Positions 991 to 14,877 of a DNA stretch of 51,702 bases are shown one piece after another. The stretch's first letter is position 1; each line of letters opens with the position of its first letter. The translations under genes and the position numbers were made by a program. The notes beneath the pieces are model-generated. The model had not been told where the DNA came from, did no database searches, and worked only from the letters and a program-made list of their open reading frames with translations. Location: positions 1 to 51,702 of IMG/VR virus record IMGVR_UViG_3300008108_000167. The stretch is one strand, 5' to 3'. The DNA comes from a virus.

Positions 991-1031
991 TGGCACAGTA
1001 AATGAGCACAGTGCCCAAAATCCTGTATTCT
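991..1031 (+). promoter_or_regulatory. Early-type promoter EP1 with TGGCAC boxes
   Basis: TGGCAC lies at 991-996 and GAGCAC at 1004-1009. A 16-bp spacer follows, then TATTCT at 1026-1031. The distance from TGGCAC to TATTCT is 29 bp, the same as in EP2, EP3, EP4, EP6 and EP9. It is followed by a leader of the type TTAAGAAGTTCAAGG. It drives the gene at 1056. Nearly the same 60 bp recur upstream of 2827. Confidence 0.7.
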
Positions 1032-1055
1032 TAAGAAGTTCAAGGAACACCTCCA

Positions 1056-1253
1056 ATGTCTCCCCAAACTCAGATTGAAATCATCATCGAGTCTCTGCAA
1101 GACTTGTATGAGATTATGAATCGCTCTCGTTCAGTCAATCCCAATCGCCCTGATAGTGTAGAAGATCCCTCCTATCCTTTTGTGGTTGGTTACACTCAAG
1201 GTGGGATCAGTAATGTCATTTATGATCTGAAGCGTCTCAAAAAACAAGTGTGA
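1056..1253 (+). CDS. Small protein, unknown function
   Basis: A 65-residue protein with a helical N-terminus (QIEIIIESLQDLYEIM), a central Pro/Arg/Ser-rich segment and a basic end (LKRLKKQV). It is monocistronic between promoters EP1 and EP2. An AAGGA stretch about 10 nt upstream of the ATG is a weak ribosome binding site. No family is recognised. Confidence 0.72.
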   Translation: MSPQTQIEIIIESLQDLYEIMNRSRSVNPNRPDSVEDPSYPFVVGYTQGGISNVIYDLKRLKKQV

Positions 1254-1265
1254 CACTCTGATAGG

Positions 1266-1306
1266 TGGCACAACAAATCTCCAAAGAACCCAAAATCCTG
1301 TATTCT
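1266..1306 (+). promoter_or_regulatory. Early-type promoter EP2
   Basis: TGGCAC at 1266-1271, a 29-bp gap, then TATTCT at 1301-1306, followed by TTAAGAAGTTCAAGG. The upstream string TGATAGGTGGCACAA is shared with the promoters near 11105 and 13164. It drives the eight-gene micro-operon beginning at 1332. Confidence 0.7.
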
Positions 1307-1331
1307 TAAGAAGTTCAAGGGATCGCACCCA

Positions 1332-1580
1332 ATGATCGAGTTTCCCACACTTCAGTCAAAGGATGGAACAATGCTCGTGGGATTTTATCCCATTGAGGAT
1401 TGCTCCACTCACACTCTTAAGATTCTATCTTGGAAGGGTGTTGATACAATCTCTCAAAAGTGCATCAGCAAAAAAGATGCAATTCGTGAGATTGATGAGC
1501 GTCTTGCACTTGATTATGTTATCACTGGTGACAACATTGATCTAGTTCAAGAGTACAACTTTATGCAAGGTGCTTGTTGA
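1332..1580 (+). CDS. Small protein, unknown function
   Basis: An 82-residue protein starting MIEFPTLQSKDG. Alternating hydrophobic segments (TMLVGFYPIE, HTLKILSWKGV) suggest a small beta-rich fold, with a helical KKDAIREIDERLAL stretch after them. It is the first gene after EP2, and a leader ATG lies 26 nt after the -10. No family is recognised. Confidence 0.72.
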   Translation: MIEFPTLQSKDGTMLVGFYPIEDCSTHTLKILSWKGVDTISQKCISKKDAIREIDERLALDYVITGDNIDLVQEYNFMQGAC

Positions 1581-1582
1581 TT

Positions 1583-1711
1583 ATGTTGATTTTAGGTGGG
1601 TTTATTGTGACAATGTTCGCGTTTCTATTTTATCTTGAAGATCGCTCTGGTGGCGGTCTTTATGATCCTGACCCCTCTGCATCTTATCGTCACAAAAAAT
1701 CAAAAAAATGA
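1583..1711 (+). CDS. Tiny single-pass membrane protein
   Basis: A 42-residue ORF. Residues 2-18 form one hydrophobic segment (LILGGFIVTMFAFLFYL), followed by a polar tail with GGGLYDPDPSAS and a basic end (RHKKSKK). It is probably an inner-membrane micro-protein, N-terminus out and basic tail in the cytoplasm by the positive-inside rule. It begins two bases after the previous stop and overlaps the next start by ATGA (1708-1711). Confidence 0.65.
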   Translation: MLILGGFIVTMFAFLFYLEDRSGGGLYDPDPSASYRHKKSKK

Positions 1712-1842
1712 GAATTGCTTTTTTGATTGCTACTCTTGCACTTGGTCTTCGTGTTGGTCTTGCTGCTCATGCTACAGTAAATGAGTATCAAGAACAACAA
1801 GCAGATCGTTTTTGTCAAATCAATCCTAATTACTGCAAATGA
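1708..1842 (+). CDS. Tiny protein with signal-like N-terminus
   Basis: A 44-residue ORF. Residues 1-22 are hydrophobic after an N-terminal Arg (MRIAFLIATLALGLRVGLAA), like a signal peptide or membrane anchor. A polar tail with two cysteines near the end (FCQINPNYCK) follows. The two Cys could form a disulfide outside the cytoplasm (inference). It is linked to both neighbours by ATGA overlaps. Confidence 0.65.
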   Translation: MRIAFLIATLALGLRVGLAAHATVNEYQEQQADRFCQINPNYCK

Positions 1843-2204
1843 TTTCTCTTTCAAATCCGATCAAAGAAAACCAACTTTTCGAATCTTTGTATAATAAGTG
1901 TCAAGAGGATTCTAACTTTCTTCACACTATCTTGGATGAATACTTCAGTTCTCTAAATGAGTCTGAAATTGCATCACTTAACGATTTTCTTAACGATTCT
2001 GATATGAAACATCAGGCAGAAATCAACGATTCTATTGTTGCATTGTTTGACAATCTTTCTGTCAACAATGAATCTCTATATGAAAAATGGGTATGTGAAC
2101 TTTATACTGAAGATGGAGATATGATTAAACAAAAGTGGAATCAAGAGACCATTGATTTGATGTGGAGCGATGTAATTGATTCTGCACTCACTCTCGAAGA
2201 TTGA
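1839..2204 (+). CDS. Acidic helical protein, unknown function
   Basis: A 121-residue acidic protein. An N-terminal pattern (LYNKCQED, FLHTILDEYFSSL, LNDFLND) resembles the 51-residue protein at 8521-8676, so the two look like paralogs with this one extended by about 60 residues. It starts at an ATGA overlap and ends five bases before the next gene. Function is unknown. Confidence 0.75.
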   Translation: MISLSNPIKENQLFESLYNKCQEDSNFLHTILDEYFSSLNESEIASLNDFLNDSDMKHQAEINDSIVALFDNLSVNNESLYEKWVCELYTEDGDMIKQKWNQETIDLMWSDVIDSALTLED

Positions 2205-2206
2205 TC

Positions 2207-2353
2207 ATGACACGCAAAACATTGACATTCAAGAGTCCAGACCGTATGAAACTGCTTGCATTGATCTTTGCTTTTGCATTTATCTTCTCTCCTTCTGTTC
2301 GCTATTCATCTGCACAAGTTCTTCACACTGTTGCTGATCTCATTGAACAATGA
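2207..2353 (+). CDS. Tiny membrane or signal-peptide protein
   Basis: A 48-residue ORF: a basic N-terminus (MTRKTLTFKSPDRMK), a hydrophobic helix at about residues 15-30 (LLALIFAFAFIF), then a short polar tail. It is consistent with a single transmembrane segment. It starts at a TGATCATG junction and overlaps the next gene by ATGA (2350-2353). It is the third small membrane protein of this operon. Confidence 0.65.
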   Translation: MTRKTLTFKSPDRMKLLALIFAFAFIFSPSVRYSSAQVLHTVADLIEQ

Positions 2354-2538
2354 ACACTGCATTTGTCACTCCCAAGAGTAAAAAGTCCAAAAACAGATTC
2401 TGTAACCTGATGGAATCAAATCCTGAGTGCATTATTGAACAAGACAAGGGCAATCGTGTCTTTCTACGTTCATTGAATGGAAAGAACTTTTTCTGGGCAA
2501 ATCTACACAATGATTCTGATTGGAGCATTGAATTATGA
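2350..2538 (+). CDS. Small basic protein, unknown function
   Basis: A 62-residue protein with a basic N-terminus (TPKSKKSKNRFC) and a compact hydrophobic/aromatic C-terminus (NFFWANLHNDSDWSIEL). ATGA overlaps on both sides (2350-2353 and 2535-2538) fix the start and link it to the operon. No recognised domain. Confidence 0.7.
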   Translation: MNTAFVTPKSKKSKNRFCNLMESNPECIIEQDKGNRVFLRSLNGKNFFWANLHNDSDWSIEL

Positions 2539-2738
2539 CTGAAACTCAAGCACAACTGATTCGCAGCATTGAACAACAACTTGACAATCTAATGTCTCTA
2601 GATTATGACCTTGCTTATCAATATGAGTGTGAGTTGTATTATGATTGTAATGTTGAAGACCCAGTTAGAATTGTTGAGAATTACACACACGAACTTTTAA
2701 CTGAACTTGAGAAAGTTGTTTATGAACTCGACAACTAA
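2535..2738 (+). CDS. Small acidic helical protein
   Basis: A 67-residue, strongly acidic, helix-rich protein (MTETQAQLIRSIEQQL, LLTELEKVVYELDN) with a Tyr/Glu/Cys-rich middle. It is the last gene of the EP2 operon and starts at an ATGA overlap. Function unknown. Confidence 0.72.
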   Translation: MTETQAQLIRSIEQQLDNLMSLDYDLAYQYECELYYDCNVEDPVRIVENYTHELLTELEKVVYELDN

Positions 2739-2760
2739 CACCATGTGACACTCGTAGAAC

Positions 2761-2801
2761 TGGCACAGTAAATGAGCACAGTGCCCAAAATCCTGTATTC
2801 T
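2761..2801 (+). promoter_or_regulatory. Early-type promoter EP3, near-copy of EP1
   Basis: TGGCAC at 2761-2766, GAGCAC at 2774-2779, TATTCT at 2796-2801, with the same 7-, 16- and 29-bp spacings as EP1. The sequence from GTAGAACTGGCACAG through the -10 is almost identical to 985-1031, which points to a duplicated promoter cassette. The downstream leader differs (AAAGAGTCAAAGC). Confidence 0.7.
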
Positions 2802-2826
2802 TAAAGAGTCAAAGCAATTCAAGCAA

Positions 2827-3243
2827 ATGACTGCAACTCTCACCGATCGCAAATCTGAGGTTCTGAAGTATACTCAATCTCTTTGTGAAGCACTTGAGAT
2901 TGATTTTCGACTTTACAACACAAAGCAACATCGTCTTTCTGCAGAGAAAGAAATGAACACTGATTATCATAATCAGTGTCTGCAACAAATTGCTGATGGT
3001 ACTTATGACTTTGGTTACAAGTATGAAATTGAAGAAGGTAAGAAATATCTGAAAGTGATTATGATTGCTCATGGTAGCAAGAGCGTACATTGTTTTGTAG
3101 ACAAGAACACTGGTTCGGTTCTAAAGTCGGCATCGTGGCGTAGTCCTGCAAAGGGAGAAAGGTGCAACCTTTTGATTGCTAACGAGAGGGAATGGGCACT
3201 TGAAAATGCAGACTGGAGTGGAGGTTGGTTATATAAGCGTTGA
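2827..3243 (+). CDS. Conserved phage protein, unknown function
   Basis: A 138-residue protein. The N-terminal half is helical. The C-terminal half carries VHCFVDKNTGSVLKSASW then SPAKGERCNLL, a pattern I associate with a small protein family common in cyanophages, usually left as hypothetical. The family assignment is from memory. It is transcribed from EP3 and ends at a strong bidirectional hairpin terminator. Its last 15 bases overlap the end of the convergent endonuclease gene. Confidence 0.75.
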   Translation: MTATLTDRKSEVLKYTQSLCEALEIDFRLYNTKQHRLSAEKEMNTDYHNQCLQQIADGTYDFGYKYEIEEGKKYLKVIMIAHGSKSVHCFVDKNTGSVLKSASWRSPAKGERCNLLIANEREWALENADWSGGWLYKR

Positions 3244-3813
3244 TGTAAAAGTCCCGTCATCATTTCTTTGACGGGACTTTGCTTTCTCTTTCATTGTATT
3301 TTTTATTTTCTCCTTTTGTTCTTCACTCATAGGACCAACTTTTTTACCTTTATTCCAAGGAATGTTGCCCTTTAATGATTGACTAATCTTTTTGCCAGTT
3401 TCTTTATTCCATCCTCCACCATTTCTTCTTGATTCCATTCTTTTAGCAATCTGTTCTGGTGATTGCTTTTTGTCTTTTAAGTGCCCTTTCTTTGCTTCAC
3501 TTATCTTTTTCCTTGTTTCTTCACTCATAGGCATTCCAGTATTATCATAATCAAACTTTGATGAAGTTTGATTTGCCTGATTTACAAAATGTGGGTTATT
3601 CTTCACATCATAAAAGTTGTGAAGAATAACCTCCGCTGCTAATGCCTCCTCTCTGGTATTACATTCCATCAAAATGATTTTATTTGTTGGGTTAAATGTC
3701 TTATCATAGTAACTGCCAAAGTAATCATCTTCACAAATGTTACACTCACATTGTCTTATGCCAATGTATCCTCTGCCCCAATCTTCATACGAGTAATAGA
3801 CATAATGATTCAT
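3229..3813 (-). CDS. GIY-YIG homing endonuclease with NUMOD3 repeats
   Basis: A 194-residue protein. It starts MNHYVYYSYEDW..GYIGIRQC, a GIY-YIG-type catalytic module with EEALAAEVILHNFY, where the Glu is a likely metal ligand. NUMOD3-like DNA-binding motifs follow (SEETRKKISEAKKG, ETGKKISQSLKGN, EEQKEKIKNTMKEK). This fits a free-standing homing endonuclease of the phage type. I chose the ATG at 3811-3813 because GGAGA precedes it. The longer frame runs back through the plus-strand promoter and is rejected. An exact TATAAATA late promoter lies 20 bp upstream. Its C-terminal residues are encoded by the neighbour's terminator stem. Confidence 0.85.
   Translation of the reverse strand: MNHYVYYSYEDWGRGYIGIRQCECNICEDDYFGSYYDKTFNPTNKIILMECNTREEALAAEVILHNFYDVKNNPHFVNQANQTSSKFDYDNTGMPMSEETRKKISEAKKGHLKDKKQSPEQIAKRMESRRNGGGWNKETGKKISQSLKGNIPWNKGKKVGPMSEEQKEKIKNTMKEKAKSRQRNDDGTFTSTLI
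3247..3281 (+). terminator. 12-bp stem bidirectional terminator
   Basis: AAAGTCCCGTCA (3248-3259) pairs with TGACGGGACTTT (3269-3280) across a 9-nt loop, with A-rich and T-rich flanks. This suits termination from both sides. It lies inside the coding 3' end of the minus-strand endonuclease gene, whose last residues are read from the stem. Confidence 0.75.
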
Positions 3814-3833
3814 AACTTTCTCCATTCTTTTAT

Positions 3834-3841
3834 TATTTATA
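3834..3841 (-). promoter_or_regulatory. T4-type late promoter TATAAATA
   Basis: The minus strand reads TATAAATA, the exact T4 late -10 consensus, 20 bp upstream of the endonuclease ATG. It implies late expression of the endonuclease inside an otherwise early-looking plus-strand region. Confidence 0.7.
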
Positions 3842-3842
3842 A

Positions 3843-3863
3843 ACCTGCTACTTGGTAGCAGGT
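3843..3863. repeat. Inverted repeat, 9-bp arms
   Basis: ACCTGCTAC (3843-3851) and GTAGCAGGT (3855-3863) with a 3-nt loop, directly behind the minus-strand late promoter. It may insulate the divergent endonuclease and plus-strand genes. It shares three bases with the next hairpin. Confidence 0.6.
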
Positions 3864-3888
3864 GTGCCAGTTTAATTTCTGGCACACC
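3861..3888. repeat. Inverted repeat GGTGTGCCAG / CTGGCACACC
   Basis: Perfect 10-bp arms (3861-3870 and 3879-3888) with an 8-nt AT loop. The right arm supplies the TGGCAC box of promoter EP4. A similar GTGCCAG/CTGGCAC hairpin precedes the other minus-strand gene, near 12739-12771. Confidence 0.65.
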
Positions 3889-3920
3889 CCTTGGTTTTTC
3901 CCACCAAAAACCTGTATTCT
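3880..3920 (+). promoter_or_regulatory. Early-type promoter EP4
   Basis: TGGCAC at 3880-3885, a 29-bp gap, TATTCT at 3915-3920, then TTAAGAAGTTCAAGGAACAC as in EP1. It drives the gene at 3945. The TGGCAC box sits in the arm of an inverted repeat. Confidence 0.7.
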
Positions 3921-3944
3921 TAAGAAGTTCAAGGAACACCAAAC

Positions 3945-4229
3945 ATGACAACCGCAACCGCCTCCCGCACTTTTGTTCACCAGTCTGTAAACAGCAGTGC
4001 AATCTCCCAACTCTCTGTAATCTCTGGAGAGATGGAAGGAACCTATGATCTGCTGGTTATCTTCAACAGCAATCCTGATAAAATCTATCAGTATGCTTTT
4101 GAAGATGATGCTGCTGCACTTCGTTGGATTGATCTTCTGAGCGATAGTGAAGCACGAGAAGCAACATCCTGGGGTCGCGAATTGAATCGTGCTCTGAAGC
4201 ATGGTGATCTTGAGATCCTCGCAATGTGA
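3945..4229 (+). CDS. KTSC-like small protein
   Basis: A 94-residue protein containing VNSSAISQLSVISGE then YDLLVIFNSNPDKIYQYAF. This resembles the KTSC fold pattern (Ser-Ser-Ile, a hydrophobic strand, a turn and Y.Y), known as a small domain beside lysyl-tRNA synthetase and in phages. The match is by eye and moderate. A helical C-terminus (EATSWGRELNRALKHGD) follows. It is monocistronic after EP4. Confidence 0.7.
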   Translation: MTTATASRTFVHQSVNSSAISQLSVISGEMEGTYDLLVIFNSNPDKIYQYAFEDDAAALRWIDLLSDSEAREATSWGRELNRALKHGDLEILAM

Positions 4230-4247
4230 TGATCTGATTCTATTAAA

Positions 4248-4269
4248 ATGGGGATTGCAAAATCCCCAT
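4248..4269 (+). terminator. Hairpin without U-tract
   Basis: ATGGGGATT (4248-4256) pairs with AATCCCCAT (4261-4269) across GCAA. There is no T-run after it, so it may be a processing or partial termination hairpin between genes 3945 and 4290. Confidence 0.45.
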
Positions 4270-4289
4270 AATCACCACAATTACAACTC

Positions 4290-4442
4290 ATGACTGACAC
4301 TACCAGCATCAAAGAGTTTTTCACAAATGAAGAATGGGATGCAATTTATGAAGCAATGAGTGAGTTTCAAGATCAGGGTGATGAAGAATCAGAATTGACT
4401 GATTCTGTGCAACTCAAGATTCAACAACTGTTTCTGAACTGA
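4290..4442 (+). CDS. Tiny acidic protein
   Basis: A 50-residue ORF (MTDTTSIKEFFTNEEW..) with acidic helices and a C-terminal QLKIQQLFLN. It ends three bases before the next ATG (TGAATCATG junction). It continues the plus-strand micro-gene run. No family is recognised. Confidence 0.6.
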   Translation: MTDTTSIKEFFTNEEWDAIYEAMSEFQDQGDEESELTDSVQLKIQQLFLN

Positions 4443-4445
4443 ATC

Positions 4446-4619
4446 ATGCGATCCTACAGTCCTGCATCTGACATTGAAACAAAGCAAATCGTTTGGAGTT
4501 GCTTTAAGTTTAATCAACAACTGATGCACAATGAAACACCACAAGTTCATGATTCAGTGTTTCTTTCAGGATGCTTTGCAGATCGTTACTCTGACGAAGT
4601 AAAGACTACTACATTCTGA
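4446..4619 (+). CDS. Small protein, unknown function
   Basis: A 57-residue ORF (MRSYSPASDIETKQIVWSCFKFNQQ..) with two cysteines. It starts at the TGAATCATG junction with the previous gene. Codon use matches neighbours. Function unknown. Confidence 0.6.
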   Translation: MRSYSPASDIETKQIVWSCFKFNQQLMHNETPQVHDSVFLSGCFADRYSDEVKTTTF

Positions 4620-4679
4620 ACATTCTGTCCTGAATCATGACACTAAACTGATTCAACCAAACTCCTTTACTTTTTGATG

Positions 4680-4814
4680 ATGTCTAAGTCTACTCTGATC
4701 AATCTTCTCAAGCAAGGCAACACTGGCAATGAGATTCTTGAAATTCTTGAATCTCTGACAAGTGAAGAACCGCAAGGTAATCAACAACCCACATTGGATA
4801 AAATTGCCTTCTAA
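4680..4814 (+). CDS. Tiny protein, unknown function
   Basis: A 44-residue ORF (MSKSTLINLLKQGNTGNEIL..) with an amphipathic helical core (EILEILESLTSEE). A second ATG directly upstream (4677) could add one Met. The stop TAA lies in the string CTAAATAATAA. It is followed by a terminator and a late promoter. Confidence 0.6.
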   Translation: MSKSTLINLLKQGNTGNEILEILESLTSEEPQGNQQPTLDKIAF

Positions 4815-4852
4815 ATAATAATGCTCTAATGAGTTCGCAACTATAAGAGCGT

Positions 4853-4878
4853 GGAGGTTCTTTGGAACCTCCTTTTTA
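4853..4878 (+). terminator. Rho-independent terminator
   Basis: GGAGGTTC (4853-4860) pairs with GAACCTCC (4865-4872), 4-nt loop, followed by TTTTT. It ends the 3945-4814 unit and separates it from the endonuclease-like gene at 4925. Confidence 0.8.
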
Positions 4879-4887
4879 ATTTTTTTT

Positions 4888-4895
4888 AATAAATA
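4888..4895 (+). promoter_or_regulatory. Late promoter AATAAATA
   Basis: AATAAATA, the same form used upstream of gp25, gp8 and gp18 in this window, 29 bp before the ATG at 4925. It implies late expression of this inserted gene. Confidence 0.6.
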
Positions 4896-4924
4896 GTAAT
4901 GCGAACTCAATTAGAAGCACAATT

Positions 4925-5716
4925 ATGACTTCACAAAGTCCAAGAATTTACACATATAAGATTACCTTTGAAGAAGTTCCATATTACTATTATGGAATGC
5001 ACGAAGAAAAGGTATATGATGAGGAATACTGGGGTTCTCCTGTAACAAATAAATGGTGTTGGGAACTTTATACTCCAAAGAAACAGATATTAGAAACTTT
5101 CAATAATCGTGAAGATGTTGGTGAAGTTGAGAGAAGATTGATAAAACCAGTTTATAATACTGATAAATGGTGTTTGAATGCGAATTGTGGTGGTATTATT
5201 TCATTGGAAGTTCATAGAAAAACAGGCAAAAAAACATATGAAAAGAGAAAAGGATTTCATGCACTTACTAAAGAACAAAGATATAATAATAGCAGTAAAG
5301 GAGGAAAAATAGTAAAACAACTAGGTAAAGGTATTTTTGCACTTACCTCTGAACAAAGAAATGAGTACAATAAAAAGTTAAAAGAACAAGGTAAAGGTAT
5401 TCATTCTTTTACATTTGATCAAAGAAGTGAATATGGTAAAAAAGCATATAAACTTGGTGTTGGTGTCCATGGAAGAACAAAAGAAGAAATGATAGAGCAA
5501 GGGAGCAAAAATGGAAAAAAGTTATATGAACAAGGTAAAGGTATTTTTGCAAGAACAAAAGAAGAAATGACTGAACATGGCAAAGTGGGAGGCAAATTAG
5601 TTTCTTTACAAAAGTGGCAATGCACTGTAACTAAACATATTTCAAGTGCTGCATCATTAGCAAGATATCAAAAAGCAAGAGGAATTGATACATCTAATAG
5701 AATAAGAATAGAGTAA
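4925..5716 (+). CDS. GIY-YIG-like homing endonuclease with tandem repeats
   Basis: A 263-residue protein. The N-terminus (IYTYKITFEEVPYYYYGMH, then YWGSPVTNKWCWELY, then KKQILETF) matches the variant GIY-YIG module of cyanophage homing endonucleases as I recall them. From about residue 112 there are five repeats of 22-26 residues built on GKGI(F/H)A(L/R)T then (E/D)QR or EEM, then GKK. These are probably successive DNA-contacting units. A basic C-terminus follows (ASLARYQKARG). It has its own late promoter and uses AGA for Arg, unlike the CGT-rich neighbours, consistent with insertion. Confidence 0.75.
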   Translation: MTSQSPRIYTYKITFEEVPYYYYGMHEEKVYDEEYWGSPVTNKWCWELYTPKKQILETFNNREDVGEVERRLIKPVYNTDKWCLNANCGGIISLEVHRKTGKKTYEKRKGFHALTKEQRYNNSSKGGKIVKQLGKGIFALTSEQRNEYNKKLKEQGKGIHSFTFDQRSEYGKKAYKLGVGVHGRTKEEMIEQGSKNGKKLYEQGKGIFARTKEEMTEHGKVGGKLVSLQKWQCTVTKHISSAASLARYQKARGIDTSNRIRIE

Positions 5717-5822
5717 ATTTTAATTTTTCTGTAATTTCATTTGATCGCATGATTCGTGGCATCATTCAAAACAGAATTGCAATTTTTTTTTTTTTTGAAT
5801 TTGCTTTTGCCAGTTGGATAAC

Positions 5823-5863
5823 TGTCCACTTAACCACCATTAGGTTTCGTTTTCCGGTATTCT
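5823..5863 (+). promoter_or_regulatory. Early-type promoter EP5 (divergent boxes)
   Basis: TATTCT at 5858-5863, followed by ATAAAAGTTCAAGAAAC. TGTCCA (5823-5828) occupies the 29-bp position where other members have TGGCAC. It drives the gene at 5893. A run of 14 T (5783-5796) lies upstream. Confidence 0.55.
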
Positions 5864-5892
5864 ATAAAAGTTCAAGAAACATCAGTTGTATC

Positions 5893-6399: not shown

Positions 6400-6413
6400 A
6401 TCATAAGGAGAGA

Positions 6414-6439
6414 AGAGAGGGTAACACCTCTCTTTTTTT
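6414..6439 (+). terminator. Rho-independent terminator
   Basis: AGAGAGG (6414-6420) pairs with CCTCTCT (6427-6433) across GTAACA, then continues as a T-run. The stem-loop style is the same as at 12144. Confidence 0.8.
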
Positions 6440-6622
6440 GTGTTTGTATCAAAAACTGTTTTTTCTTTAATTTTATTTGTGGTGCATGAGTGCTTCTACG
6501 TTACTGGTGAAATTGCAGGTTTTTGCGGTTTTTACTCTAGTGTCCATCAGGGTTCTCAGTGAGTCTCAAGTGCAACAGCAGTCCCATACCAGCAGATCGT
6601 ACCATTGTGCCAATCCCCAAAC

Positions 6623-6663
6623 TGCCACATGCTCATGGCACAGAGTCCAAAATCATGTATTCT
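6623..6663 (+). promoter_or_regulatory. Early-type promoter EP6, tandem boxes
   Basis: TGCCAC (6623-6628), 7 bp, TGGCAC (6636-6641), 16 bp, TATTCT (6658-6663). The second box sits at the -35 position and the first 13 bp above it. The leader is AAGAGTCGAAAACAACAC, with no Shine-Dalgarno site before the ATG at 6690. The rest of 6440-6620 shows no supported gene. Confidence 0.68.
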
Positions 6664-6689
6664 ATAAGAGTCGAAAACAACACAACGAC

Positions 6690-6863
6690 ATGAATCGCCA
6701 AGCACTTCAAGATCAACTGATTCAGCAGATGTTGGATGACATGGATCTTAAGACAATGACTCAACTTTGTTATGATTATCTGGATGAGGGTTATGCTAAG
6801 TATTCTGATGAAGAACTGATTACTGAATGTGAAGAATACTATCCTGAACTGATCGAAGGGTGA
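6690..6863 (+). CDS. Small acidic helical protein
   Basis: A 57-residue, very acidic, helix-rich protein (MNRQALQDQLIQQMLDDMDL.., EELITECEEYYPELIEG). The start is set by promoter EP6 and the CACAACGACATG leader shared with the next two units. Function unknown. An upstream in-frame extension crosses the promoter and is not used. Confidence 0.7.
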   Translation: MNRQALQDQLIQQMLDDMDLKTMTQLCYDYLDEGYAKYSDEELITECEEYYPELIEG

Positions 6864-6875
6864 CGATCTGAGAAC

Positions 6876-6918
6876 TGGCACAAGAGGGATTGCAAAGTCG
6901 AGCAATCTCTGCAATACT
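6876..6918 (+). promoter_or_regulatory. Early-type promoter EP7 with dyad
   Basis: TGGCAC (6876-6881), then a dyad GATTGC (6888-6893) / GCAATC (6902-6907), then AATACT (6913-6918) and TTAAAAAGTCGAAAAC. The gap from box to -10 is 31 bp. It drives 6945. Confidence 0.62.
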
Positions 6919-6944
6919 TAAAAAGTCGAAAACAACACACCGAC

Positions 6945-7124
6945 ATGTTTGCTGTTCTTCCCACTTCCAACAACTTCTTCAAAGACGATGCAGAATGGTA
7001 TACTGATCTTGAACATGCTTATGATGTTGCATTTGATTGGAGCGTTGAACTTTCTGGCGAACGTGTCAACATCTATGAAGTTCGTAGTGGTGAGTTTATC
7101 AAACTGACTGAGGTATTTGCATGA
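6945..7124 (+). CDS. Small protein, unknown function
   Basis: A 59-residue protein (MFAVLPTSNNFFKDDAEWYTDLEHAYDVAFDW..). The C-terminal half has strand-like segments (ERVNIYEVRSGEFIKLTEVFA), so it looks like a small alpha/beta fold. It is monocistronic between EP7 and EP8. No family is recognised. Confidence 0.68.
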   Translation: MFAVLPTSNNFFKDDAEWYTDLEHAYDVAFDWSVELSGERVNIYEVRSGEFIKLTEVFA

Positions 7125-7144
7125 AACTTATCCAGTTCTGAAAC

Positions 7145-7187
7145 TGGTACAGCAGAGGTTGCAAAGTCTAGCAATCTCTGCAATACT
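7145..7187 (+). promoter_or_regulatory. Early-type promoter EP8, paralog of EP7
   Basis: TGGTAC (7145-7150) and AATACT (7182-7187), a 31-bp gap as in EP7. The dyad is GGTTGC/GCAATC, changed in one arm relative to EP7 but still pairable. The leader AAAAAGTCCAAAACAACTC is close to that of EP7. Confidence 0.62.
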
Positions 7188-7214
7188 TAAAAAGTCCAAA
7201 ACAACTCAAACGAC

Positions 7215-7560: not shown

Positions 7561-7562
7561 TC

Positions 7563-8518: not shown

Positions 8519-8520
8519 TC

Positions 8521-9059: not shown

Positions 9060-9064
9060 CAACA

Positions 9065-9217: not shown

Positions 9218-9243
9218 TTCGTGAATAGAAACCTAATACAGAG

Positions 9244-9269
9244 AGAGGGTACTTATATCCTCTTTTTTT
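9244..9269 (+). terminator. Rho-independent terminator
   Basis: AGAGGGTA (9244-9251) pairs with TATCCTCT (9256-9263) with one G-U pair and a CTTA loop, then a T-run. It closes the 8013-9217 unit directly upstream of the inserted gene at 9295. Confidence 0.75.
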
Positions 9270-9294
9270 ATGTTATAATACTGCTAAAAACGAA

Positions 9295-9852: not shown

Positions 9853-10016
9853 AGGTGTTTTTATTGTTTTTTCGTTAAAATAGCGTAAAAAAACGTTTTT
9901 TTAATAATTAAATATCAATTAAAATATAAACGATCGAATCATCTCTCTGATCAGTATTGTTATTAAAAGGTGATAATGATAAGAATTCGTATCAATTAGA
10001 GACTGTTTTATGTGTC

Positions 10017-10110
10017 ATTAAAATGTACTGAGACCTTGTGTTTATACCCTTTTAATACCTCAGAGTCTTGTGTTTATAGTCAATTAAATGTACTGAGACC
10101 TTGTGATCTT
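10017..10110 (+). repeat. Three direct repeats, about 33-bp period
   Basis: ACTGAGACCTTGTG occurs at 10027-10040 and 10092-10105, and a diverged CTCAGAGTCTTGTG at 10059-10072. Each is preceded by a TTAA(A/T)-type string, and the first two are followed by TTTATA. The 32- and 33-bp spacing equals three helical turns, which suits a regulator binding in phase. Confidence 0.65.
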
Positions 10111-10197
10111 AGACAACTTACACTAACGAACGCGATTTGTCAACTCCGGAGGGTCACAAAACCCTCACAAGTCCGCCATAAAATCACACCAGACCCA

Positions 10198-10205
10198 CAT
10201 AAATA
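10198..10205 (+). promoter_or_regulatory. Possible late promoter CATAAATA
   Basis: CATAAATA, the same form as upstream of gp13 and gp15, lies 68 bp before the ATG at 10273. Context is less clear than for the structural genes. Confidence 0.35.
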
Positions 10206-10272
10206 TGCCACAGACCTTGACATCCACGCCACAGCATCTTACAATACTCTCATAACACAAAGGAGCGTACTT

Positions 10273-10446
10273 ATGTCCGTTGCATACAGTCAAGCACAGA
10301 AGGTTCGTTATCGCATCACCCTAGACATCTCTGCGTTTCCAGACTTCGACCCACATCAGATTGACTGGGAAAAACTCTTTAAGTTGGAACCTGCAGAGAG
10401 AGTAGATGCGTATATTGAGGATTTGTCAACACCCGATCGCTGGTAA
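10273..10446 (+). CDS. Small conserved cyanophage-type protein
   Basis: A 57-residue protein (MSVAYSQAQKVRYRITLDISAF..), containing DFDPHQIDWEKLFKLEP, a VDAYIEDL segment and a PDRW end. A clear AAAGGAG lies 7 nt before the ATG, so this start is preferred over the longer frame from 10012. I recall similar small proteins from cyanophages; function unknown. A hairpin terminator follows. Confidence 0.75.
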   Translation: MSVAYSQAQKVRYRITLDISAFPDFDPHQIDWEKLFKLEPAERVDAYIEDLSTPDRW

Positions 10447-10489
10447 GTACGCCAATTCGTTTATAACAATCCAAATATCGTGAATGAAG

Positions 10490-10527
10490 TCCCGCAGGTA
10501 TCAGAGCACCTGTGGGATTTTAATTTT
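10490..10527 (+). terminator. Rho-independent terminator
   Basis: TCCCGCAGGT (10490-10499) pairs with ACCTGTGGGA (10508-10517), one G-U pair, followed by TTTTAATTTT. It ends the 10273 gene. Confidence 0.75.
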
Positions 10528-10567
10528 GCATGAAATAGTGAAAGTATAAAGAACTGGTTTTTTCGTT

Positions 10568-10602
10568 GTTTATACCTTATTATTACAAGGCAGGATAGGT
10601 AC
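10568..10602 (+). repeat. Intergenic element A, copy 1
   Basis: GTTTATACC, TATTATTACAAGG, CAGGATAGGTACA, with TAGTCTA shortly downstream. It is the first of six related copies (see 10939, 13071, 13553, 14153, 15128). It lies 139 bp before the -10 of EP11. Confidence 0.6.
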
Positions 10603-10683
10603 AAACGTAGTCTATCAGATCTCAGAGCATAAGTCAAGGGGTTTTCATGAATCGTTACATAAGCATTGCTGATCGTTAAATGC

Positions 10684-10712
10684 TTGACAAGATCCTAGTT
10701 CTGTGCAATTAT
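10684..10712 (+). promoter_or_regulatory. Promoter EP11, TTGACA-N17-AATTAT
   Basis: A canonical -35 TTGACA (10684-10689), a 17-bp spacer, AATTAT (10707-10712), then ATAAGGGTC and the leader TCAATTCTTCACATG. The region GTTCTGTGCAATTATATAAG is nearly identical to EP10. Confidence 0.75.
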
Positions 10713-10737
10713 ATAAGGGTCAAGATCAATTCTTCAC

Positions 10738-10896
10738 ATGAAACCGATTAAAGTTGGCATGATGACTGAAGATGGAACCTGGAAGATTCTTGCCAGTTTC
10801 TCTACTTATGAAAAGGCAGATTCTGCTCTTGATAAGTATTGTGACAAGTATCCTAATGCTTGGATTGATATTCTAGATGGAGCATTGGCAGAATAG
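10738..10896 (+). CDS. Small protein, unknown function
   Basis: A 52-residue protein (MKPIKVGMMTEDGTWKILASFSTYEKADSALDKY..) with two strands, a helix and a WIDIL strand. It looks like a compact beta-beta-alpha-beta unit. The start is set by EP11 and the conserved TCAATTCTTC leader. A strong terminator follows. No family is recognised. Confidence 0.7.
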   Translation: MKPIKVGMMTEDGTWKILASFSTYEKADSALDKYCDKYPNAWIDILDGALAE

Positions 10897-10904
10897 AATA
10901 CCAT

Positions 10905-10935
10905 AGAGAGTTGCTTATAGTAACTCTCTTTTTTT
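10905..10935 (+). terminator. Rho-independent terminator
   Basis: AGAGAGTT (10905-10912) pairs with AACTCTCT (10922-10929), then T7. It ends the 10738 gene. Confidence 0.8.
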
Positions 10936-10938
10936 ATT

Positions 10939-10972
10939 GTTTATACTATTATTTCGTGGCAGGGTAAGTGAC
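10939..10972 (+). repeat. Intergenic element A, copy 2
   Basis: GTTTATACTATTATTTCGTG then GCAGGGTAAGTGAC, immediately after a terminator T-run. It lies about 200 bp before the -10 of the 11140 promoter. Confidence 0.6.
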
Positions 10973-11104
10973 TAGATTTGTGTCATTGCGTTCTCTACGC
11001 TTTCCAAATTGTAAATTAAACACTCATAGGTGTCTTCCCTTGAACTGATAGTATTGTAGGGCATACAGGGGCATCTAGAGGGGTCTGGTGGACGCTTTGA
11101 TAGG

Positions 11105-11145
11105 TGGCACAAGGTTTTGGCACTGGGCGCAGAATGGTGTATTCT
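11105..11145 (+). promoter_or_regulatory. Promoter EP9, perfect tandem TGGCAC boxes
   Basis: TGGCAC (11105-11110), 7 bp, TGGCAC (11118-11123), 16 bp, TATTCT (11140-11145). The second box with the preceding T reads TTGGCA, 17 bp from TATTCT, a sigma70-like -35. The leader AAGTCGAGAGGGATTCAACC is shared with the promoters at 13736 and 14322. Confidence 0.75.
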
Positions 11146-11171
11146 TAATAAGTCGAGAGGGATTCAACCCC

Positions 11172-11843
11172 ATGCAAGTTGCACTCACCAAGATCTCCAG
11201 CAACGCTAAGACTGGACCGATTCCTACTACAACAAGTGAGCGTAGTTCCTGTTGGAATGGTTGTCCTTTTTACGATAAAGGTTGTTATGCTAAGAGTGGT
11301 CCTCAAGCATTACATTGGCGCAAGGTATCTGAAGGCGAACGTGGTATGTCTTGGGATGCTTTTTGTAAGGCAATTCGTGACATTCAGCGTGGTCAGATCT
11401 GGCGTCATAATGTAAGCGGAGATCTGCCACATAATGGTCTTGGTGATATTGATTCAAGTAAAGTTTCACAACTCGTGAATGCAAACAAAGGTCGTAAGGG
11501 TTATACTTATACTCATCATCCTTTGAATGAGAGTAACATTAACGTGATTCGTGAATGTAACTCCAATGGGTTTACTGTCAATGCTTCTACAGAGGATGTA
11601 GAAGTTGCAGATAAAGTTATGACAGAGCATGGTATTCCTGCTGTTGCTGTCGTGAATTCAGAAGAATCACGTCGATTCTTTACTACTGAGAGTGGTCGTA
11701 AGGTTATCGTTTGTCCTGCAACAATTCATGATAATGTAACTTGTGCAACTTGTGGTTTGTGTCAGAAAGCAGATCGTGAATTCGTAATTGCTTTCCCTGC
11801 ACATGGTACTGCTAAAAAGACTGTGAATAGCATTGTAGCATAA
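11172..11843 (+). CDS. Cysteine-rich conserved phage protein
   Basis: A 223-residue protein. The N-terminus MQVALTKISSNAKTGPIP is followed by a Cys cluster (SCWNGCPFYDKGCYA, residues about 25-39), and there is a second cluster near residue 190 (CATCGLCQ). The two clusters could bind a metal or an iron-sulfur centre, or be structural zinc sites (inference). The middle has alternating strand/helix segments (GYTYTHHPL, IPAVAVVNS, VIVCPATIHD) like an alpha/beta barrel. I recall it as a phage protein of unknown function, with a possible radical-SAM-like or nucleotide-related fold. The ATG at 11172 follows the EP9 leader. Confidence 0.78.
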   Translation: MQVALTKISSNAKTGPIPTTTSERSSCWNGCPFYDKGCYAKSGPQALHWRKVSEGERGMSWDAFCKAIRDIQRGQIWRHNVSGDLPHNGLGDIDSSKVSQLVNANKGRKGYTYTHHPLNESNINVIRECNSNGFTVNASTEDVEVADKVMTEHGIPAVAVVNSEESRRFFTTESGRKVIVCPATIHDNVTCATCGLCQKADREFVIAFPAHGTAKKTVNSIVA

Positions 11844-11910
11844 TACTTCATATAGTCCTGAGTAAGACTCTAAACTGCTCAAACTGTCCCTTTAATTCTT
11901 TTAATTCATC

Positions 11911-12120
11911 ATGGTTAAGTTCAACAGCAGCGTGATCACCAGCATCAGCGAGATCGAGAACAATCAAGTCACCATTGAGTTTAATGGTCGTCCCTATACT
12001 TACACTGTTTCTGACACTGAAGGTTTCATGAATGACCTTACTGATGTTGTAGAAGAAGGTGAAAGTGTTGGTAGTTTCATCAATCGTGCAGTGCGTGCAA
12101 ATGTTCTCCAACTGATCTGA
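11911..12120 (+). CDS. KTSC-like small protein
   Basis: A 69-residue protein (MVKFNSSVITSISEIENNQVTIEFNGRPYTYTVSD..) with F.SS.I, then a strand V.IEFNGR.Y.Y and C-terminal GSFINRAVRANVLQ. This is the arrangement expected of a KTSC-type domain. Compare 3945-4229, which carries a similar core. Role unknown. It ends at a terminator shared with the convergent gene. Confidence 0.72.
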   Translation: MVKFNSSVITSISEIENNQVTIEFNGRPYTYTVSDTEGFMNDLTDVVEEGESVGSFINRAVRANVLQLI

Positions 12121-12143
12121 TCTTTCGTCAATAAGAATTATAG

Positions 12144-12170
12144 GGAGAGGGTAATACCTCTCCTTTTTTT
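12144..12170 (+). terminator. Rho-independent terminator between convergent genes
   Basis: GGAGAGG (12144-12150) pairs with CCTCTCC (12157-12163) across GTAATA, then T7 (12164-12170). The stop codon of the minus-strand gene lies at the edge of this T-run. Confidence 0.82.
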
Positions 12171-12699
12171 ATGTTTTCAATTTAGTATAATCTAATTTTT
12201 GTTTATTAAGAAAGTTCTTTTGTTGTTGCAAAGCATCTTTTATTTTTTGCTCTCTCTTGATTAGGTTTACTGTGTTTATTGGTTTAGGTTTAGTGCGTTT
12301 CTTTTGGTGCAATCTTTCTCCTAACTCTACATCAAGTTGTTCAATAAATGCAATAAATCTTTTTCTAACTTTCTTATATTCAGACAGTGAAAGTTCTTCG
12401 CTTTCAACAAGATACTTTCTTTGTTGATGTAGTAAATCTTTGATTGTCTCGTTAATCCAATCGTCTATACTTTTGACGTAATTGTTTCGTTCTTTTTGAT
12501 AAACTATCTCTTCAGATTTAGTTTTAATTTTTAGTATTTCTAGTCTCTTATCTACAAAGTCGATAATTTTGTTTCTTTGATTATTGGTTGGTGGTCCAAT
12601 TATAGTAGAGTTTAGTTCATTAACACTTTCTACTAAAATAGAATCCAATCCATCAATGTTAAAGACTTCGTTTAATTTTTTACAGTTAAAATGTTCCAT
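12169..12699 (-). CDS. Minus-strand helical protein, late-promoter driven
   Basis: A 176-residue, Lys/Glu/Gln-rich, largely helical protein with coiled-coil-like runs (KRLEILKIKTKSEEIVYQK, LIKREQKIKDALQQQKNF) and a basic linker (RLHQKKRTKPKP). I do not recognise the family. An exact TATAAATA lies 27 bp upstream on the same strand, so it should be expressed late. It stands alone against the plus-strand genes, as the endonuclease at 3229-3813 does, and may be a mobile gene (inference). Confidence 0.75.
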   Translation of the reverse strand: MEHFNCKKLNEVFNIDGLDSILVESVNELNSTIIGPPTNNQRNKIIDFVDKRLEILKIKTKSEEIVYQKERNNYVKSIDDWINETIKDLLHQQRKYLVESEELSLSEYKKVRKRFIAFIEQLDVELGERLHQKKRTKPKPINTVNLIKREQKIKDALQQQKNFLNKQKLDYTKLKT

Positions 12700-12705
12700 G
12701 TCTAT

Positions 12706-12798
12706 TCTGTTTGGGTTGCAAGTATTATTTATATTAAAGGTGCCAGAGAAGTGTGAACTAACTCTGGCACCTTATCTGTTAAGTGCAACCCAAACAGA
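12706..12798. repeat. Nested inverted repeats around a late promoter
   Basis: Outer perfect 15-bp arms TCTGTTTGGGTTGCA (12706-12720) and TGCAACCCAAACAGA (12784-12798). Inner perfect 10-bp arms GGTGCCAGAG (12739-12748) and CTCTGGCACC (12762-12771). The minus-strand late promoter (12726-12733) lies between the left outer arm and the inner hairpin. A late transcript would therefore lack the right outer arm. Confidence 0.8.
12726..12733 (-). promoter_or_regulatory. T4-type late promoter TATAAATA
   Basis: The minus strand reads TATAAATA, the exact T4 late consensus, 27 bp upstream of the ATG at 12699. It is enclosed by the nested inverted repeat. Confidence 0.72.
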
Positions 12799-13070
12799 TA
12801 TTATATTTAGCGAAGGTTTTTTTGCTGTCTACGTGTATACTTTCACTTTTTTCGTGAATAGTATCGTGAATAAAACTACTTGACAACCTTAAGATTCTTG
12901 AGTAGACTATCTTTGTTCCGGATGATAAACACCGTATAAGCTATCTAAACCGATTTAAGTGAAAAGAGATTCTACAGGGTATAGAGTACCTTTTCGTGAA
13001 TAGAATTACAAGAAAAGAAGAAAGTAATAAGAACTCGTGAATAGAAAAGTATAGTGAATTGTTTTTTTGA
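12799..13070. other. AT-rich interval with CGTGAATA motifs, no gene
   Basis: No supported gene. TTCGTGAATAG recurs at 12851-12861 and 12993-13005 (there as TTCGTGAATAGAA). TCGTGAATA is at 12864-12872 and TCGTGAATAGAA at 13035-13046. TTC-GTGAATA-GAA can fold as a small stem with a GTGAATA loop. TTGACAACCTTAAG at 12882-12895 resembles a -35 but no matching -10 is clear. Confidence 0.45.
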
Positions 13071-13110
13071 GTTTATTATACTATTATTTCAAGGCAGGGT
13101 AGGTACAAGA
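13071..13110 (+). repeat. Intergenic element A, copy 3
   Basis: GTTTATTATACTATTATTTC, AAGGCAGGGTAGGTACAAG, with TATAGTCG downstream. It is the best match to the consensus, 129 bp before the -10 at 13200. Confidence 0.6.
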
Positions 13111-13163
13111 CCAGTATAGTCGTTTTGAGAGGTAGTGGTTGATATTGTGGACACTCTGATAGG

Positions 13164-13205
13164 TGGCACAAGGTAATGGCACAAACCCAGAATCTGTGCA
13201 ATTAT
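13164..13205 (+). promoter_or_regulatory. Promoter EP10, tandem TGGCAC boxes
   Basis: TGGCAC (13164-13169), 7 bp, TGGCAC (13177-13182), 17 bp, AATTAT (13200-13205), then ATAAAGGTCGAAATC and TCAATTCTTCTCATG. The upstream string TCTGATAGGTGGCACAAGG matches EP2 and EP9. Confidence 0.72.
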
Positions 13206-13230
13206 ATAAAGGTCGAAATCAATTCTTCTC

Positions 13231-13449
13231 ATGACTGTTAAGGAACGCCTGATCGCTACTGGGTATTCTTTTGAACCACAAACAGGTTGCTGGGTGAATG
13301 TTAATGAATCCAAGGGATTGTTGTATTCCTATCTGCAGGATCCTGAAAGTGTAGGTGATGATGATATTTGGTGCTATGAAGAAGTAAATAAGGATGGTGA
13401 TCTTGTTGATAAACATATCTTTACAGAGTACAGTTTCATGAATTACTGA
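13231..13449 (+). CDS. Small acidic protein, unknown function
   Basis: A 72-residue acidic protein (MTVKERLIATGYSFEPQTGCWVNVNESKGLLYSYL..) with strand-like stretches and Asp/Tyr-rich end. The start follows the EP10 leader. A perfect 11-bp hairpin ends the unit. No family is recognised. Confidence 0.7.
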   Translation: MTVKERLIATGYSFEPQTGCWVNVNESKGLLYSYLQDPESVGDDDIWCYEEVNKDGDLVDKHIFTEYSFMNY

Positions 13450-13459
13450 TAGAAACTGT

Positions 13460-13488
13460 GAGAGGGTTTCGTGAATAGAAACCCTCTC
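13460..13488 (+). terminator. 11-bp hairpin with GTGAATA loop
   Basis: GAGAGGGTTTC (13460-13470) pairs with GAAACCCTCTC (13478-13488) around the loop GTGAATA. No T-run follows. The loop and closing pairs are the recurring TTCGTGAATAGAA motif. Confidence 0.65.
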
Positions 13489-13552
13489 TATTCCTTAGTC
13501 AATTCTTTACATTTAACTAAGTATAAAGTATTAAATAGTGATTCTTAGTTAA

Positions 13553-13588
13553 TTCTTTATAGTATTATTTCATGGCAGGGTGAGTGAC
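13553..13588 (+). repeat. Intergenic element A, copy 4
   Basis: TTCTTTATAGTATTATTTCA, then TGGCAGGGTGAGTGAC. It lies 183 bp before the -10 at 13736. Confidence 0.55.
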
Positions 13589-13697
13589 CTGTTTTGTATC
13601 ATGGCGCTTCTGCGCTTCCCTCTCTTGTCTCCTAAAGTCTACCATGCCAGACGCCCAGATCGCGAGGATCCAAGAGCAAAAAAACCAGTTCGCTAAC

Positions 13698-13741
13698 TGG
13701 CACAAGACCCCATTGTGCTTTGCCTGAATCTATGGGATTCT
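13698..13741 (+). promoter_or_regulatory. Promoter EP12
   Basis: TGGCAC (13698-13703) inside a CCAGTT/AACTGG hairpin, and GATTCT (13736-13741), 32 bp apart, followed by ATAGGGGTCGAAAGGGATTC and AACCCATG. It has no clear -35 and is assigned by the shared leader and -10. Confidence 0.55.
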
Positions 13742-13766
13742 ATAGGGGTCGAAAGGGATTCAACCC

Positions 13767-14093
13767 ATGACTGTCACTGTTACTACCAACAACCAGGCAC
13801 GCAAGTGCATTATGGGGCAATGGTTGCCTGGTTTCAGTGCATTTAATCCTGGAGGTTTGTACGTTAAATTGCGCGAGCAGTTTGACTACCTTACTCAGGA
13901 TGAGTTTGATGAAACTGAATTCTTTCAATATAAAGGGGATTGGTATTCTGTAGGTGATTTTATCAGGGTAGTTGCTGCACCTCATGAGCACCTTTATGGT
14001 TGGGATGGGTATAGTTCAGATTCCTACTTTAGTGGGGTTGTGATGAAGTATTGCTACGATGGCACTGTAATTGTGGGACGTTATTGTTCCTGA
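13767..14093 (+). CDS. Conserved small protein, unknown function
   Basis: A 108-residue protein (MTVTVTTNNQARKCIMGQWLPGFSAFNPGG..) with aromatic, strand-rich C-terminus (GYSSDSYFSGVVMKYCYDG, TVIVGRYCS). It looks like a small beta fold. The start is directly after the shared GGGATTCAACCC leader. A terminator follows. No family is recognised. Confidence 0.72.
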   Translation: MTVTVTTNNQARKCIMGQWLPGFSAFNPGGLYVKLREQFDYLTQDEFDETEFFQYKGDWYSVGDFIRVVAAPHEHLYGWDGYSSDSYFSGVVMKYCYDGTVIVGRYCS

Positions 14094-14114
14094 TAAAGTA
14101 ACACAAACTGTAGG

Positions 14115-14144
14115 GCACCTGAGTATATCTTGGGTGCTTTTTTT
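14115..14144 (+). terminator. Rho-independent terminator
   Basis: GCACCTGAG (14115-14123) pairs with CTTGGGTGC (14129-14137), two G-U pairs, then T7. It ends the 13767 gene. Confidence 0.75.
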
Positions 14145-14152
14145 CATGCCTT

Positions 14153-14190
14153 GTTTTATACCGGTATTTCAAGGCAGGGTGCGCTCGGTG
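14153..14190 (+). repeat. Intergenic element A, copy 5
   Basis: GTTTTATACCGGTATTTCAA, then GGCAGGGTGCGCTCGG, with GGTAGTCTACTTGAT downstream, also found after copy 6. It starts 169 bp before the -10 at 14322. Confidence 0.6.
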
Positions 14191-14298
14191 GTAGTCTACT
14201 TGATCCGGGCATCCGGTCAACCGGTTTTTACAAAACTTATGATCAGAATCTCTTATGAGATGAGTTTTGATTTTGGTATCGCAGGATACATTTCCGCC

Positions 14299-14327
14299 TT
14301 GACAGGATCCTGGATTTGTGGGATTCT
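14299..14327 (+). promoter_or_regulatory. Promoter EP13, TTGACA-N17-GATTCT
   Basis: TTGACA (14299-14304), exactly 17 bp, GATTCT (14322-14327), then TAATGGGTCGAGAGGGATTT and CACCCCATG. It has a canonical -35 instead of a TGGCAC box and shares its leader with EP9. Confidence 0.78.
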
Positions 14328-14353
14328 TAATGGGTCGAGAGGGATTTCACCCC

Positions 14354-14665
14354 ATGCGCAAGATTGAAACCCAGATGAATCAGGCGATCCAAAATGAGAT
14401 CGACTGGCAGAAAGACAACACTAAAGTTGTCAATGAGGAGGGTGTATCTCTTGTCTATTTGTACAACAATCTGATCGCAATGGTTGGCGATACGTGGTTG
14501 GAACTGTTCGACGCTGGGTATCAAACTAACACTACAAAAAGCAGGTTGAACGCTATTCTTTCTGCGCATGGCAATGGTGAGAGAATCTATCAGAAAAATC
14601 ACCAGTGGTTCCTGTCAACATCTGATGGTGACGTTGAGTTTAATGGCAATATCAGACTTGACTGA
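14354..14665 (+). CDS. Conserved phage protein, unknown function
   Basis: A 103-residue protein (MRKIETQMNQAIQNEIDWQKDNTKV..), then LVYLYNNLIAMVG, a TKSRLNAILSAHG helix and RIYQKNHQWFL. I recall this pattern from many small marine phage proteins. The TKSRLNA segment resembles a helix-turn-helix-like end, but function is unknown. The start is set by the EP13 leader. Confidence 0.78.
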   Translation: MRKIETQMNQAIQNEIDWQKDNTKVVNEEGVSLVYLYNNLIAMVGDTWLELFDAGYQTNTTKSRLNAILSAHGNGERIYQKNHQWFLSTSDGDVEFNGNIRLD

Positions 14666-14669
14666 TAAA

Positions 14670-14724
14670 GTATAAAGAACTGTCCTGGGCAAGACATAAA
14701 ACTGCCACAAACAGTTCTTTACAC
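14670..14724. repeat. Inverted repeat between genes
   Basis: GTATAAAGAACTGT (14670-14683) and ACAGTTCTTTACAC (14711-14724), one mismatch over 14 bp, with a 27-nt loop. AGTATAAAGAACTG also occurs near 10544 in another intergenic region, so the arm may be a binding site. Confidence 0.55.
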
Positions 14725-14734
14725 TTTTCGACCA

Positions 14735-14869
14735 ATGTTTGAAGCACTTCTGGCAACTGCACTGATGGTTGGTAATGTAGAGATTGGACCTGGAATTTAT
14801 CAAGAACAATATATCACTGTTGTAGATAATGTGCCTGTTTTAGTAGAGTTTGAGTCTGATGTAGAGTGA
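14735..14869 (+). CDS. Tiny protein, unknown function
   Basis: A 44-residue ORF (MFEALLATALMVGNVEIGPGIYQEQYI..) with a mildly hydrophobic N-terminus and strand-like VPVLVEFESDVE. It overlaps the -35 of the next promoter. Weak start context. Support is mainly position between a hairpin and the next promoter. Confidence 0.5.
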   Translation: MFEALLATALMVGNVEIGPGIYQEQYITVVDNVPVLVEFESDVE

Positions 14870-14877
14870 TCTTAATA
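14849..14877 (+). promoter_or_regulatory. Promoter EP14, TTTGAG-N17-TTAATA
   Basis: TTTGAG (14849-14854), 17 bp, TTAATA (14872-14877), followed at the same distance as in EP10 and EP11 by CTCAATTCTTCTCAC and the ATG at 14908. Confidence 0.6.

Follow-up and report, generated by a model that had tools for sequence, protein, structure and literature searches.

The stretch of DNA considered here, hereafter the window, is a 51.7-kb contig (51,702 nt, the whole of IMG/VR record IMGVR_UViG_3300008108_000167) from a viral metagenome, for which few close annotated relatives are available. In it a run of small genes precedes baseplate-type genes and, since S-PM2 and DSL-LC03 are arranged alike, with gp25 and gp6 following small unknown genes, the window is, as judged from its genes, a T4-like, Kyanoviridae-like cyanophage. 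It carries a family of promoters in which the -10 hexamer is preceded, at an almost fixed distance, by a long palindrome; these promoters are termed early on the strength of their gene context and of their likeness to Syn9.

Thirteen window promoters (labelled EP in Table 1), aligned on the -10, share the hexamers TATTCT, AATACT, AATTAT or GATTCT; about 12 bp on from the first base of the hexamer comes a conserved start, which reads GTCGA or GTTCAAG, and an ATG follows at a distance of 30-35 bp from the -10. The original prediction, made from the window alone, had described early promoters with tandem TGGCAC boxes, and most of its details are borne out: its four -10 variants are all present; in each of the seven units that it listed TGGCAC or TGCCAC stands with 29 bases (30 in the unit at 13164) ahead of the -10; a second TGGCAC lies 13 bp further in at 6636, 11118 and 13177; and the units at 991 and 2761 have GAGCAC in that place. 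TGGCAC is also over-represented in the window by 2.7-fold (32 copies against 12.0 +/- 3.6 expected, a number reached in none of 100 shuffles). What had been overlooked are units with the box 31-32 bp before the -10 (at 6876, at 13698 and, as TGGTAC, at about 7145), so that the overall distance ranges from 29 to 32 bp, and an upstream arm, GTGACA or GTGCCA, exactly 10 bp before the first box. Arm and box together make up a palindrome of 22 bp, GTGMCA-N10-TGKCAC, in which the box is proximal to the promoter and whose dyad centre lies at about -53. When the window was scored with a position weight matrix (PWM) trained on its relatives only, 11 of the 13 promoters proved to have the palindrome where it was expected. 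Ten of these sites rank within the top 0.03% of window positions, and that of EP8 stands at 0.031%. The two promoters without it are those for which a canonical TTGACA-N17 had correctly been noted (-10 at 10707 and 14322); palindrome and TTGACA are thus mutually exclusive in the window.

The spacing of the arms was counted over the window together with 37 loci that encode relatives of its DUF7227 protein (window 11172-11843): the exact pattern GTGNCA-Nk-TGNCAC has 46 occurrences at k=10 and 0-4 at each other k from 0 to 25. The consensus widens to TGTGMCAgtt-N4-aacTGKCACA. The fuller consensus at gap 10 was found in at least 120 stretches of IMG/VR and, among the matches listed, 58 of 100 distinct cases have TANNNT at offset 29-30, versus about two at most other positions. 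The gap-11 pattern, used as a spacing control, yielded 46 stretches, nearly all of them conserved coding DNA and a few promoter-like; promoter-like copies with a half-site gap of 11 occur in marine contigs (L051 1106-1130, L083, L089). Complete genomes of S-PM2, Syn9, S-CRM01, P-SSM2, P-SSM4 and S-RSM4 contain the exact palindrome and in P-TIM40, P-HM2 and B23 the counts with one mismatch exceed the control, while genome counts are near background in S-SM2, T4, Ma-LMM01, P-SSP7, Syn5 and PSS2. When 11 T4-like cyanophage genomes were scanned for strong sites (matrix score of at least 14, with the -10 sought at +27 to +32), TANNNT was almost always present 28-30 bp downstream, for example in 14/14 sites of P-SSM2, 27/28 of B23, 11/12 of S-PM2 and 7/7 of P-TIM40, and shuffled genomes gave 0-3 sites each.

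In these promoters the dyad centre lies just upstream of the -35 region, which is poor in most of them, its likeness to TTGACA being weak and only slightly above that of shuffled spacers; in the window only EP9 and EP14 have a canonical one. The second TGGCAC, 13 bp inward of the first, by which the family had originally been defined, occurs in 3 of the 95 strong promoters of the 11 genomes, all three in the window, and was also seen in L004, a close relative; being restricted to this lineage, it is a lineage-specific add-on outside the conserved element. The tandem 13-bp boxes are therefore rejected as the conserved unit, and a direct repeat bound in series is not supported as the defining feature of the family; what is supported of the original prediction is a family of promoters that have, at a fixed distance, an element foreign to the sigma70 consensus. 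Known promoter types were also looked for in the 95 strong promoters and rejected: an NtcA-dependent type (GTA-N8-TAC near -41), a sigma54 type (TGGCAC-N5-TTGC, -24/-12) and a T4 middle type (MotA box TTGCTT upstream of the -10) each matched one promoter, and a Pho box none. As an aside, the palindrome promoters of S-CRM01 (HQ615693) at 121-155 kb share TATGCTAGCTAAGTGGTCGAG where the window has TATTCTTAAGAAGTTCAAG, a parallel promoter family within one phage.

Contigs that bear palindrome arrays and have no T4-like proteins are relatives of the Microcystis siphophage Mic1. In Mic1 itself there are 47 palindrome sites, all between 57 and 72 kb and with none in shuffled sequence, and a CATAAT-type -10 at offset 30. 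Because the same site and geometry recur in this unrelated phage of another cyanobacterial order, it is more likely that the factor recognizing the palindrome is supplied by the host than by the phage; of the original suggestion of a phage or host activator or repressor, the likeness to a regulator site is retained, with the balance shifted toward the host. In the Mic1-like phages the palindromes form tandem arrays upstream of promoters, mostly 57-63 bp apart and up to six in a row, with a 58-bp array unit containing TTGACA (L136:779-2811, L200:382-4838 and Mic1 MN013189 65948-72102).

Operators of the GntR family are palindromes of the form GT-Nx-AC, in which, in the YtrA branch to which PlmA is close, the operator is long and GT and AC lie far from the centre; extra half-sites nearby are described for the family (PMC4494728). 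GTGMCA-N10-TGKCAC has this form, and host GntR genes were examined for this reason. A GntR gene scored above the cut-off in 137 of 151 Cyanobiaceae genomes, the single strong one being plmA, which encodes a cyanobacteria-specific regulator with an almost invariant DNA-binding domain across Cyanobiaceae. Upstream of plmA, in 32 of 34 Cyanobiaceae regions, T-R-K-GMCA-N10-TTGKCACC lies about 75 bp ahead of the start codon; as in phages, either of two letters is allowed at the fourth arm position, and there is usually an extra half-site upstream. Four divergent genomes, whose PlmA is only about 70% identical, have an equally good palindrome of different sequence at -62. The maxima of the phage PWM have a median of 9.0 at plmA loci and of 0.0 at Crp-family loci and reach at most 7.6 upstream of psbA, a score of 9 or more being found in 0.05-0.3% of 200-bp stretches in two host genomes. 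Conversely, a matrix built from the plmA sites alone recovered 123 phage sites at gap 10 versus 9-35 at other gaps, and 87 of the 123 lie 28-30 bp before TANNNT. No GntR domain turned up in 18 phage records.

On these grounds we consider it moderately probable that sigma70-type phage promoters with a weak -35 depend on a dimeric host factor bound to the 22-24 bp palindrome near -53, directly upstream of RNA polymerase, and that this factor is most likely PlmA. Present in the cell before infection, PlmA would switch on phage genes at once, probably through contact with the alpha C-terminal domain or sigma region 4; TTGACA would compensate in promoters that have no palindrome, and the extra half-site of the window lineage may add a contact at -35. 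We infer PlmA binding, activation rather than repression and early timing from sequence; activation by polymerase contact is favoured because the gap to the -10 is tight, the -35 is poor and TTGACA takes the place of the palindrome where the latter is missing. More tentatively, T4-like phages of Synechococcus and Prochlorococcus and Mic1-like siphophages of Microcystis may have converged on PlmA to activate their first promoters.

Several observations weigh against PlmA as the activator. No wide host regulon was seen: strict palindromes are near chance in Cyanobiaceae (8 versus 9 in the control over 8 genomes; 15 versus 6 over 300), where the matches are coding or without a -10, and likewise in a scan of 106 host genomes (11 versus 5); with two mismatches, 61 Cyanobiaceae genomes give a slight excess (63 versus 34 in total), several of them in coding DNA. 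In other cyanobacteria (L532-L551) the region upstream of plmA shows no such palindrome, though PlmA has a nearly identical DNA-binding domain in them, and the plmA site of WH7803 is modest (phage PWM 6.3). Among the phages scanned, sites are few in S-SM2, S-CREM1 and DSL-LC03 and absent from T7-like cyanophages. The host regulators covered were GntR, the first family tested, and the Crp family, which served only as control; the same data would also follow if a different host factor had plmA under its control. Such a factor, activating the early promoters from the same site, is rather unlikely in our view: a conserved site at plmA does show that the gene is regulated and not by which protein, and its absence outside Cyanobiaceae would fit, but GntR regulators usually autoregulate, the motif has their form (PMC4494728) and the host scans found no other regulon with the palindrome.

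The small number of host sites would also suit a phage-encoded protein, either carried in the virion or made first from the TTGACA promoters EP9 and EP14, acting like MotA or as a repressor in early shut-off, and 107 core ORFs (open reading frames) are without assignment. We hold this to be quite improbable, considering that the same site and gap are found in the unrelated Mic1 and at host plmA and that no regulator emerged as a candidate when phage genes were compared by presence and absence. PlmA might instead use the palindrome as an operator to repress or time phage promoters, or be titrated by it as by a sponge, as the 58-bp arrays of Mic1 and the mostly repressive nature of GntR proteins would allow. 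At plmA itself the palindrome lies over the -35 region, about 15 bp from a putative -10 and thus closer than in phage promoters, a position that could repress or serve as a class II site. In phage promoters the palindrome keeps a strict distance of 28-30 bp from the -10, which, together with the poor -35, nevertheless points to polymerase contact, and a lytic phage would gain little by repressing its own first genes, which makes an operator or sponge unlikely. Finally, the boxes could be transcribed stem-loops, parts of terminators or PeSLs, rather than a protein site; the EP4 palindrome can indeed form a hairpin followed by T-rich DNA, but an A/G mismatch between the arms is kept at most sites, the 24-mer folds, as RNA, with a median energy of only -4.3 kcal/mol and the gap to the -10 is fixed, so that we regard this as most improbable.

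The early element has probably been met before. Doron et al. (ISME J, 2016) reportedly described a novel early-gene regulatory element in Syn9 and P-TIM40 that is conserved among T4-like cyanophages. The palindrome is present in both, in front of small genes that precede gp25, and for this reason we regard the two elements as probably identical. To our knowledge, that study identified no binding factor and did not extend to siphophages; the GntR-type palindrome centred at -53, its identical geometry in an unrelated siphophage and its match to the host plmA operator appear to be new. T4-like cyanophages are not known to have the T4 proteins that redirect the host polymerase, Alt, ModA, MotA and AsiA, so that the start of their gene expression across many hosts is an old question. 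T4 middle promoters are alike in combining a sigma70 -10 with an activator box in place of the -35, but the MotA box TTGCTT lies at -30 and the cyanophage palindrome at -53; motA is not found in cyanophages (PMC2984593). Cyanophage promoters dependent on NtcA or PhoB (PMC3037559) likewise place a host regulator tied to nutrient state at the service of the phage, yet differ in their sites, nearly absent from palindrome promoters as reported above. Within the GntR family, an activator position of -53 is unusual.

PlmA is a partner of PII-PipX (PMC5083789) and a thioredoxin target (PMC5923263), and the literature search returned no defined binding site for it and nothing linking it to phages beyond incidental mentions. 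If PlmA is the activator, one fixed palindrome and a nearly invariant Cyanobiaceae domain would explain how the same early programme runs in different hosts, the start of infection would be tied to the nitrogen (PII-PipX) and redox (thioredoxin) signals of the host, Mic1-type arrays might also titrate PlmA, and the palindrome would be the first predicted binding sequence for this regulator.

Table 1. Palindrome and TTGACA promoters of the window (all on the + strand; positions in the window).
Feature	Positions	PWM score	Gap to -10 (bp)	-10 (positions)	Other
EP1 palindrome GGTGACACTTGTAGAACTGGCACA	974..997	29.9	28	TATTCT (1026-1031)	GAGCAC 1004-1009
EP2 palindrome TGTGACACTCTGATAGGTGGCACA	1249..1272	29.5		TATTCT (1301-1306)	
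EP3 palindrome TGTGACACTCGTAGAACTGGCACA	2744..2767	32.1		TATTCT (2796-2801)	
EP4 perfect palindrome TGTGCCAGTTTAATTTCTGGCACA	3863..3886	26.4		TATTCT (3915-3920)	
EP5 degenerate palindrome TTTGCCAGTTGGATAACTGTCCAC	5806..5829	9.1		TATTCT (5858-5863)	top 0.02% of window positions
EP6 palindrome TGTGCCAATCCCCAAACTGCCACA	6606..6629	25.8		TATTCT (6658-6663)	
EP6 extra half-site TGGCAC	6636..6641				at -35 position
EP7 palindrome GGTGACGATCTGAGAACTGGCACA	6859..6882	20.7	30	AATACT (6913-6918)	
EP8 degenerate palindrome TTATCCAGTTCTGAAACTGGTACA	7128..7151	5.6		AATACT (7182-7187)	
EP9 TTGACA-N17-AATTAT promoter	10684..10712	-21.7 (upstream)			no palindrome
EP10 palindrome GTGGACGCTTTGATAGGTGGCACA	11088..11111	8.8		TATTCT (11140-11145)	extra TGGCAC 11118-11123
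EP12 palindrome GTGGACACTCTGATAGGTGGCACA	13147..13170	13.5	29	AATTAT (13200-13205)	extra TGGCAC 13177-13182
EP13 palindrome AAAACCAGTTCGCTAACTGGCACA	13681..13704	8.7	31	GATTCT (13736-13741)	
EP14 TTGACA-N17-GATTCT promoter	14299..14327	-30.3 (upstream)			no palindrome
Further palindrome unit, overlooked in the original prediction	16337..16360	14.9	29	TATAAT (16390)	ATG 16424

Some minor observations complete the picture. Several near-identical palindromes, TGTGCCACTAATCAAATTGTCACA, are found in some Cyanobiaceae genomes (G021 L433-L438, G161, G145) with no -10 at the phage distance, and may represent a mobile or phage-derived repeat; three strict palindromes lie within 2.4 kb in a genome from outside Cyanobiaceae (G339:C1:2301234-2303646), for which no PlmA was found. 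In the window, a NUMOD3 homing-endonuclease-like gene (3229-3825, minus strand) is inserted between early units and adjoins the perfect palindrome of EP4. A conserved 5' leader that starts GTCGA/GTTCAAG directly follows the promoters (1038-1057, 6670-6692, 6925-6947 and 13748-13767) and is a possible signal for RNA stability or translation; in some units it can form a short hairpin GUCG...CGAC in the 5' untranslated region, as in EP6 and EP7, which is not a general feature of the units.

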